A DNA stretch of 32,646 bases from Candidatus Nanoarchaeia archaeon (GTDB lineage: Archaea; Nanobdellota; Nanobdellia; Woesearchaeales; UBA10216), in contig JANQSZ010000025.1 in assembly GCA_028279045.1 (NCBI GenBank), positions 1 through 32,646 on the forward strand, written 5' to 3'. Below are positions 8,937 to 10,556 of the stretch, one piece after another (the first letter of the stretch is position 1; every line of letters starts with the position of its first letter). A model generated the notes under the pieces. The model did no database searches, was not told where the DNA came from, and was given only the letters and a program-made list of their open reading frames with translations. A program made the translations under genes and the position numbers.

Positions 8937-8964
8937 GGTTTTTCGCAGTATCAATACCAAAGGC

Positions 8965-8972
8965 TTATAAAG
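8965..8972 (+). promoter_or_regulatory. TATA box upstream of structured RNA
   Basis: TTATAAAG on the plus strand predicts a transcript start near 8995, just before the GC-rich RNA candidate at 8995-9150. Confidence 0.55.
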
Positions 8973-8994
8973 GGCCCGAGTCTTCCGAATTGTA

Positions 8995-9150
8995 CGTCAC
9001 TGCCCGTATTATGGGTCCTTCAACAAGCTTGCCTTGTAGGCGTGCGATGCGTTGGAGACACAATATATGGGCTCAGCCCGACACGAGAGTACCTTCGGGA
9101 GTTAACGGCTAAGCCAAGCAATGAACGCGGGGGTTAGTGTTTCGGGCATC
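8995..9150 (+). ncRNA. Unassigned structured RNA, about 155 nt
   Basis: A GC-rich stretch with no ORF, directly downstream of a TATA box, in an otherwise AT-rich gap. Several helices can be drawn: TGCCCG (9001-9006) with CGGGCA (9143-9148) closes the whole element, or GCCCGA plus CAC (9076-9084) pairs with GTG and TCGGGC (9137-9147). Local hairpins include ACAAG-CTTGC-CTTGT, GGGC-TCA-GCCC and GGCTAAGCC. The first two options exclude each other. An ACA follows the last stem by 2-3 nt, as in H/ACA guides, but the rest does not clearly fit. I see no match to tRNA, 5S rRNA, SRP RNA or RNase P RNA. It could be a free RNA or the first part of a long dnaG leader. Confidence 0.55.
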
Positions 9151-9181
9151 ACATTTAATATTCAAAACATCAAGCCGAAGT

Positions 9182-9261
9182 GAATAAGCGCGATACGAAC
9201 TTACTATCATTCATGTGAAATTACATACATCAAATTCATTCAATAACCGTACCGCTTATTC
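9182..9261. repeat. 9-bp perfect inverted repeat in dnaG upstream region
   Basis: GAATAAGCG (9182-9190) and CGCTTATTC (9253-9261) are exact complements 62 nt apart. As RNA they would close an 80-nt domain between the RNA candidate and the dnaG start. The enclosed sequence is AT-rich with no ORF. It may be a second small RNA or a leader domain. Confidence 0.5.
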
Positions 9262-9270
9262 TAGAAAGAA

Positions 9271-9314: not shown

Positions 9315-10556
9315 ATGGGAAAAATTAGCTTGGTATCATCCAAGTACATTATACACTCAACTATATCCATCGAGGGTATTGTTGATAAGCCAGACATCAT
9401 TGGAGCAGTCTTCGGACAAACTGAAGGATTGCTCGGTGCAGATCTTGAATTGCGAGAACTGCAACGATCTGGTAGAATTGGACGAATAGAAGTAAACACA
9501 GAAACCAGACAAGGAAAGACGTTTGGTACTATTGTTGTTCCTAGCTCACTTGACAAAGCAGAGACTGCGATCGTGGCTGCTGCACTGGAGATCATCCAGC
9601 GTATTGGGCCGTGTAATGCGAAAGTGCAAGTCAAGGAGATCCAAGACGTACGAGTATCGAAGAGACAATATGTCGTAGACCGTGCGAAAGAACTGCTTAA
9701 GCAGCTTCAGGATTCTGTATTACCGGATTCGCAAGAAATTGCGGACGAGGTAACGCACTCTGTCCGTACTATGGAAATTACCACGTACGGGCCAGAGCGT
9801 CTTGAATGCGGTCCGAACATCAACGACAGCGATGAAATCATTGTTGTAGAAGGACGAGCAGACGTACTCACACTGTTGAAGCATGGATTCAAAAATGCAA
9901 TTGCACTTAACGGAACATCGGTTCCAAAAACAATTGTTGACTTGAGCAAGCATAAATCAGTAATGTTGTTTGTTGACGGAGACCGTGGTGGCGACCTTAT
10001 TATCAAAGAGATGCTTACAGTAGCAGATGTTGATTTTGTTACAAAAGCACCTGATGGTAAGGAAGTCGAAGAACTTGCAAAGAAGGAAATTCACAAAGCA
10101 TTGCGAAGCAGAATCACTGCAGAACAAGCTAAACTTGAATTGCCAAAGAATGGAAGTTCAGCACCGCGACGTCCAGCAGCTCGACCACAAGCACGTGAAC
10201 AACGTCGTGAACGTCCGCAACGTGATACACGAGAACGTGCGCCGGCAAGAGAACGACCAGGAATCGGTCCTCAAGAGAAGAAACTTTTCAAAGAAATTTC
10301 GGAAAGCCTAATCGGAACTCGAGGAGCATGCTTGCTTGATAACAAGCTTAACGTTCTTGGAAAAGTTCCAATTACCGAACTGAACGGAACACTTGAAAAC
10401 TTGCAGAATGTCTATGCAGTTGTCTTTGACGGTGTTATCGAATCAGATGTTGTACGAACAGCTGAGAAAGCACATGTACAACGACTCGTCGGTATGGAAA
10501 ACAAAACGCGACCTCAAGATTCAAGAATTTTGATGGCAACAATCGCTGAGTTATGA
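9315..10556 (+). CDS. dnaG: Archaeal DnaG-like primase / exosome subunit
   Basis: The 413-residue protein matches the archaeal DnaG family. The N-terminal domain (SSKYIIHSTISIEGIVDKPDIIGAVFGQTEGLLG) precedes a TOPRIM domain with VVEGRADV (E179) and FVDGDRGG (D221, D223) as metal-binding residues. An Arg/Pro-rich linker (about 275-315) follows, then a conserved C-terminal domain. There is no bacterial-type zinc finger or helicase-binding domain. In archaea this protein associates with the RNA exosome and aids poly(A)-rich RNA degradation; a priming role has also been reported. A strong GGAGGG site precedes ATG 9315, but it lies in a possible hairpin. The 3' end overlaps the convergent SurA-N-like gene by 6 bp. 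Confidence 0.95.
   Translation: MGKISLVSSKYIIHSTISIEGIVDKPDIIGAVFGQTEGLLGADLELRELQRSGRIGRIEVNTETRQGKTFGTIVVPSSLDKAETAIVAAALEIIQRIGPCNAKVQVKEIQDVRVSKRQYVVDRAKELLKQLQDSVLPDSQEIADEVTHSVRTMEITTYGPERLECGPNINDSDEIIVVEGRADVLTLLKHGFKNAIALNGTSVPKTIVDLSKHKSVMLFVDGDRGGDLIIKEMLTVADVDFVTKAPDGKEVEELAKKEIHKALRSRITAEQAKLELPKNGSSAPRRPAARPQAREQRRERPQRDTRERAPARERPGIGPQEKKLFKEISESLIGTRGACLLDNKLNVLGKVPITELNGTLENLQNVYAVVFDGVIESDVVRTAEKAHVQRLVGMENKTRPQDSRILMATIAEL

Follow-up and report, generated by a model that had tools for sequence, protein, structure and literature searches.

Positions 8995-9153 of the forward strand very likely carry the gene for a dual-hairpin archaeal box H/ACA guide sRNA with its own TATA promoter, as judged from the sequence and its relatives. 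The window, meaning the whole 32,646-nt stretch of DNA analysed, is a contig within a 1.0-Mb genome. The RNA would be of a known kind, previously uncatalogued in woesearchaeal archaea, with well-supported targets and a predicted chemistry at both sites. An earlier note on this DNA had described a promoter-linked, GC-rich structured RNA of about 155 nt downstream of a TATA box in a stretch without an ORF. All of this was borne out: the TATA box is where the note had placed it, the ORF listing contains no frame of at least 80 aa over 8995-9150, and the RNA is conserved, with covariation in both hairpins. TATA-like words are also found 26-40 nt 5´ of hairpin 1 (H1) at 43 canonical loci and ~26-30 nt 5´ of hairpin 2 (H2) where a canonical H1 was not recognised.

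The note had further seen no sign of tRNA, 5S, SRP or RNase P RNA, in agreement with our searches: RNase P RNA (RF00373) and SRP RNA (RF01857) gave no match at the locus, the copies of this genome being found elsewhere (G000:C29 and G000:C12, respectively), and a tRNA was likewise rejected for the locus. No family reached its gathering score in an Rfam search of the window and of 10 homologous loci, one of the checks that the note had proposed, which makes it understandable that the class had gone unrecognised. Searches of the open-licence literature on DPANN and Woesearchaeota guides and on archaeal A-loop pseudouridine guides showed no description of this RNA, which, given that coverage, is weak evidence of absence. 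The features of the locus are collected in Table 1.

Table 1. Features of the predicted sRNA gene and of the region up to dnaG, in window positions.
Feature	Position	Strand	Description
TATA box of sRNA gene	8965-8972	+	TTATAAAG; sequence
Hairpin 1 (H1)	9002-9072	+	covariation in 46-sequence alignment A2
H1 lower stem	9002-9009/9065-9072		
H1 left guide	9011-9016	+	AUGGGU; pairs with ACCCAU, A-loop 3´ side
H1 upper stem	9018-9024/9051-9057		
H1 K-turn region	9025-9050	+	AA 9025-9026 opposite GC 9049-9050; bulge 9046-9048; stem/loop 9027-9045
H1 C-stem start	9027-9028/9044-9045		
H1 right guide	9058-9061	+	ACAC; pairs with GUGU (U2554 back to G2551) beside predicted U2555
Box after H1	9073-9075	+	UCA in window; ACA in 32/46
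Hairpin 2 (H2)	9076-9147	+	covariation in 41-sequence alignment A1
H2 lower stem	9076-9081/9142-9147 plus 9082-9084/9137-9139		bulge 9140-9141
H2 left guide	9085-9091	+	GAGAGUA; pairs with ACUCUC of helix 69
H2 upper stem	9092-9097/9126-9131		
H2 K-turn region	9098-9125	+	GGA 9098-9100 opposite GAA 9123-9125; bulge 9120-9122
H2 C-stem start	9101-9102/9118-9119	+	
H2 apical stem	9107-9109/9113-9115		
H2 right guide	9132-9136	+	GGUUA (consensus AGUUA); pairs with UAAC(U) of helix 69
Box after H2	9149-9151	+	UCA in window; ACA 24/41, NCA 39/41
Inverted repeat between sRNA and dnaG, outside the H/ACA RNA	9182-9262	+	arms 9182-9189, 9254-9261
dnaG (archaeal DNA primase DnaG)	9315-10556	+	NCBIfam NF003108, 484 bits (cut-off 300)

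Folded as a whole, the 166-nt stretch was only slightly better than dinucleotide shuffles (z -1.94, 10 of 200 as good) and the H/ACA layout was missed; the hairpins folded separately gave z -3.32 (0/200 shuffles as good) and z -2.41 (3/200). Given the weak folding of the whole stretch, folding alone is indecisive, and it is conservation that settles the reality of the RNA. Among the 46 H1 sequences of alignment A2, 88.5% of cells are paired, with 180 double-change cells compared to 50.2 in shuffles and a covariation score of 0.584 compared to 0.216 (0 of 500 shuffles as high). Double-sided changes occur at all nine pairs of the H1 lower stem in this alignment. For the 41 H2 sequences of alignment A1, 91.2% of cells are paired, the double-change cells number 80 against 25.0 in shuffles, and the score is 0.281 against 0.122, again with 0 of 500 as high. 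Slid controls fell far below the real alignment for H1 and H2 alike. The H1 stems are unrelated among relatives, while the H2 stem is nearly fixed. Conserved pairing with compensatory changes, another check that had been suggested for this RNA, is thus found in both hairpins. Because GGTCCT and GACACTC were the motifs used to collect the sequences of A2, the conservation of these bases in A2 is in part a product of the selection; A2 omits the short hairpin of L047. A1 omits L014 and L035, which have shortened 3´ ends, and L043, L045, L047 and L049, which have long insertions or are cut off. Long insertions in the H2 apical stem were observed in L043, L045, L141, L144 and L149, all with the guide loop and box retained.

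Two mutually exclusive long-range helices had been drawn for this region, TGCCCG at 9001-9006 with CGGGCA at 9143-9148, and GCCCGACAC at 9076-9084 with GTG-TT-TCGGGC at 9137-9147, and a switch between them in a dnaG leader had been suggested. Both can be drawn. The second is conserved and corresponds to the lower stem of H2, but the first is not: relatives pair 9002-9009 with 9065-9072 instead, and the 9001-9006/9143-9148 pairing arises because the same GCCCG word occurs in both hairpins of the source species. That the locus is a cis-acting dnaG leader, a riboswitch or regulatory switch toggling the two helices, is very improbable. Such a leader would fit the position of dnaG, which lies on the same strand and at most 1.5 kb downstream of the sRNA in 114 of 119 distinct loci (median gap ~236 nt), and the GCCCG and CGGGC words do permit both pairings in the source species, but the H1 lower stem covaries within H1 and that of H2 within H2, many relatives have no H1 beside H2, and the invariant loops match 23S rRNA.

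The arrangement is instead that of an archaeal box H/ACA RNA. By published rules (PMC4652768; PMC7991803), such RNAs have a lower stem of 7-9 bp, an internal guide loop, a K-turn in the upper stem whose GA stem measures 8-11 bp, and a box at 14-16 nt from the closing pair of the upper stem, the last range being that of PMC4652768. Both hairpins found here consist of a stem, an internal guide loop and a second stem, the lower and upper stems covarying. The H1 lower stem, with 8 bp in the window and 9 in many relatives, is within the expected range, and that of H2 is composed of 6 + 3 bp with a 2-nt bulge. The distance from the H1 upper stem to the box is 15 nt in all 46 sequences. For H2, the first loop base is 17 nt from the box in 41/41, and the predicted site is 16 nt (U1915 register) or 14 nt (U1917 register) from it, both within the 14-16 nt range. 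The box after H1 reads NCA in 45 of the 46 sequences, the remaining row being gapped (-CA). The K-turn of H1 is GA/GA in 36/46; the window has AA/GC, is one of two among the 46 with GC for GA, and lacks one G.A pair. In H2, GGA is opposite GAG or GAA (GAR) in 34/41, and the GA stem is ~9 bp in both hairpins. Finally, each pocket shows bipartite complementarity around an rRNA uridine, in the A-loop for H1 and in helix 69 for H2. The window copy is slightly worn, as seen in the UCA that occurs twice, the AA/GC of the H1 K-turn and an H1 right guide of four pairs. All of the H/ACA features tested were present, and the earlier statement that the RNA has no known class no longer holds. We consider it highly unlikely that this is a new structured RNA class with a chance likeness to H/ACA RNAs. 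The want of an Rfam family at gathering score is compatible with a new class, but the pocket-to-box distance, boxes, K-turns and guide/target covariation jointly fit H/ACA.

In a blastn search with 8960-9160, matches were obtained for 47 of 98 relatives, mostly over 9074-9160. A covariance model of H2 only (R1), built from 41 sequences, matched 241 of 287 genomes of the order (146/168 for those with completeness of at least 90%) and 228 of 371 genomes in a sample of the phylum, 54 of the latter being from other orders of the same class. Nearly all matched genomes have one copy. The R1 match in the window, a sequence that belongs to the training set, covers 9075-9152 with 90.3 bits. H2 is the part kept almost everywhere, and H1 is kept, altered or lost by lineage, with many genomes having no H1 or other guides. 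An H1-like hairpin with different guide words was observed 5´ of H2 in L008, L009, L024 and L300, the right guide ACGUUC being common to the last three; re-targeting of H1 is a possible explanation. Scanning named contigs for a pattern of the conserved core yielded 100 stretches, and with few exceptions the titles among the matches listed name Woesearchaeota or Nanoarchaeota archaea. The sRNA was also met on contigs with the labels Aminicenantes and Fermentibacteria (L210, L213); these are probably misplaced contigs or wrong labels.

The guides of H2 are almost fixed, with GAGAGTA on the left in 38/41 and AGTTA (31/41) or GGTTA (10/41) on the right. They match helix 69 of 23S rRNA, where the target UAACU-AUA-ACUCUC is identical in all 40 genomes that have this 23S stretch, so that helix 69 offers no change inside the order that the H2 guides could follow. 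Each of six 23S loci contains the target a single time and the 16S locus lacks it, compared to 0.007 occurrences per shuffled locus. In a strict scan with a two-nucleotide gap, helix 69 ranks second to fifth for H2, and the pocket needs either a 3-nt gap or two alternative registers at this site. The predicted target is U1915 and/or U1917. Both pseudouridines are known in archaeal helix 69, and a single snoRNA, U19/snR191, makes both in eukaryotes (PMC2584109). In the assembly of the source genome, the A-loop was found but helix 69 was not. At nine loci from other orders of the class, the left guide is GAGAAUA, from which a changed helix-69 base is predicted in those genomes. We also noted that the 23S matches of several genomes (G008, G019, G022, G060, G069, G093 and others) all stop at the same point immediately 3´ of helix 69, in many cases with several hundred additional bases; these would be insertions, perhaps introns, adjoining the H2 target.

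For H1, the complementary sequence is the A-loop, GUGGGGGUGU-U-C-ACCCAUU, in which UGUU would correspond to E. coli 2552-2555, with 2554 and 2555 being positions of the A loop (PMC9976906). The loop of helix 89 was considered as the H1 target and dropped, the sequence being that of the A-loop (helix 92). The source genome's 23S piece (L090) reads GTGGGGGTGTTCACCCATTAAAAG, an exact match to the target sequence. In a pocket scan with the consensus H1 guides, the A-loop was ranked first in 6/6 23S loci (L052, L053, L054, L056, L051 and L055) with scores of 11.4 to 16.0, and the 16S locus gave nothing comparable (best 10.6). The right guide has the consensus ACACUC in 34/46 and reads ACACAA in the window, leaving only four pairs in this copy. 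With the window's own guides, the A-loop came second on its own 23S piece (11.0 compared to 11.9), and the best 16S site scored 11.2; the H1 target assignment thus rests on the family and not on the window copy alone. The geometry favours U2555 as the predicted target, with U2554, one register away, as a perhaps. U2554 is the place of yeast psi2923 (PMC8307265).

Unlike helix 69, the A-loop varies, at one guide-paired position where the rRNA stem partner covaries, and H1 changes with it. The guide has G where the target has C, C or U where it has G, A or G where it has U, and U where it has A; each of the four target letters has a pairing guide letter, in several families. Across a curated H1 set of 28 genomes, this free position is paired in 27, compared to 17.5 +/- 1.6 expected (0 of 100,000 shuffles as good). 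For seven positions together, 176 of 196 are paired against 167.9 expected (3/100,000), and with one row kept per family and letter pair, in a 27-genome version, 22 of 23 against 15.1 (0/50,000). An initial automatic test of 30 pairs, in which spurious H1 calls from lineages without H1 were included, had given 1131 of 20,000 shuffles as good. H1 of the curated set was recognised by GGTCC, a CAC-type right motif and its position before H2; since the decisive position is outside the recognition motif, the curation rule does not force the result. Where H1 was retained, the guides have changed along with the A-loop.

Several groups of genomes were left out of this test. Genomes with a known A-loop and no recognisable canonical H1 are G089, G069, G090, G065, G042, G080, G028, G067, G075, G078, G081 and G070, and on the same ground G033, G040, G073, G027, G071, G056, G037, G029, G021, G092, G043 and G094. 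Loci without a canonical H1 are those of G228, G150, G174, G285, G288, G282, G218, G202, G266, G164 and G184; in G076 H1 would be beyond the contig end, and in G127 it is changed. The 46 genomes with a variant A-loop divide into 11 in the test, 21 without a recognisable canonical H1 and 14 outside the test, some of these without an R1 match (G147, G102, G047, G114, G257, G271, G141, G110, G198, G157, G122, G170, G098 and G143). In one genome (G040, sRNA locus L138), the 23S sequence (L085) has an A-loop that reads GUGCUC, a change of U2554 to C, and no H1 was recognised there.

With these targets, L7Ae would bind both K-turns, and Cbf5, with Nop10 and Gar1, would bind the lower stems and boxes. 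H1 would present U2555 (or U2554) of the A-loop and H2 would present U1915 and/or U1917 of helix 69 to Cbf5, which would isomerise the presented uridines to pseudouridine. Cbf5 was found over the curated cut-off in the source genome (TIGR00425, G000:C21), and a search of 13 genomes found it in 12. An H/ACA-shaped RNA could have a main job other than rRNA pseudouridylation, such as chaperoning rRNA folding or guiding on an mRNA, and the sequence of H2, also in the lower stem, is in fact conserved beyond what guiding alone would require; a dual function, with an additional processing role, is described for the snoRNA snR10 (PMC8307265). Still, a different main job is unlikely, as both pockets match sites that are pseudouridylated elsewhere or adjoin such a site (PMC2584109, PMC8307265) and Cbf5 is present.

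Nanoarchaeum equitans is a DPANN archaeon. Its single H/ACA sRNA, of 159 nt and detected by RNA-seq between NEQ389 and NEQ392, resembles the woesearchaeal RNA in having two hairpins each with a K-turn, two ACA motifs and a similar size, in that the hairpins are parted only by ACA, and in having its own box A promoter; it differs in that it lies between the tyrosyl-tRNA synthetase gene and NEQ392, with dnaG not adjacent (PMC3491384). It is the probable counterpart, the layouts being compared through the published description only. In Haloferax volcanii, one pocket of Hvo2 is described to act in alternative registers on L1956 and L1958 (E. coli 1915 and 1917), one register leaving a third target residue unpaired, and H2 appears to be alike; Hvo1, in contrast, targets L2621 (E. 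coli 2586) and not the A-loop (PMC4652768). The comparison with Hvo1 and Hvo2 covers targets and registers. Pa40.3, Pf7.3 and Af4.3 are given as archaeal H/ACA guides for L2016/L1970 (PMC4652768), and Pf7 and Afu4 have been put forward to guide the equivalent of psi1915 (PMC2584109); they are from other hosts, have another arrangement and were set beside the woesearchaeal sRNA by description only. In eukaryotes, snR191 reportedly guides psi2258 and psi2260 in helix 69, the same region as for H2, and snR10 guides psi2923 in the PTC, right after Um2921-Gm2922, the same region as for H1 (PMC8307265). The predicted H1 site at 2555 is by geometry one base beyond that of snR10, with 2554 as the alternative. 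The yeast and human snR191/U19 and snR10 are separate snoRNAs, however, and eukaryotic H/ACA RNAs are described as having no K-turn, unlike the woesearchaeal sRNA (PMC7991803).

Downstream of the sRNA, the same-strand position of dnaG means that the two may be co-transcribed. The intergenic region contains one or two inverted repeats per dnaG leader. Arms of the type AGAAnnAG/CTnnTTCT are found in 67 of 116 intergenic regions compared to a mean of 0.2 in shuffles, the repeat in the window being a looser variant, and ATCATnTTCAT occurs within the 5´ arm in 44/116 compared to 4.8. The arms covary, as in the examples AGAACAAG/CTTGTTCT and AGAAGGAG/CTCCTTCT. In a genome-wide look for intergenic elements, many of the matches found outside these regions appear to be the same palindromic arms on the other strand. 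When Rfam matches with E values up to 10 were admitted, the region gave a single one, to snoZ266 (19.2 bits, E 0.69) at 9188-9257 on the minus strand. A box C/D RNA has a negligible probability here, since this score is at chance level, far under the gathering score of 43, and the match is outside the sRNA, within the intergenic inverted repeat and on the opposite strand. As a tentative possibility, a conserved "H/ACA-dnaG" transcription unit of woesearchaeal archaea could begin with the H/ACA gene, a unit in which one or two undescribed intergenic RNA elements (arms AGAAnnAG/CUnnUUCU, AUCAUnUUCAU inside the 5´ arm) process a dicistronic transcript or control DnaG. Were this the case, the unit would tie ribosome modification to the primase gene.

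Collectively, these data provide a probable identity, a structure, predicted targets and a search model for an RNA that is present in most sampled woesearchaeal genomes and absent from Rfam. They predict which bases would be pseudouridylated in the ribosome of an uncultured DPANN archaeon, in helix 69 and the A-loop, both of which are on the tRNA-binding face. A guide and its rRNA target are seen to change in concert, something rarely observed since targets of this kind are almost invariant, and the variable H1 beside a fixed H2 offers a natural series for the gain and loss of targets by guides.
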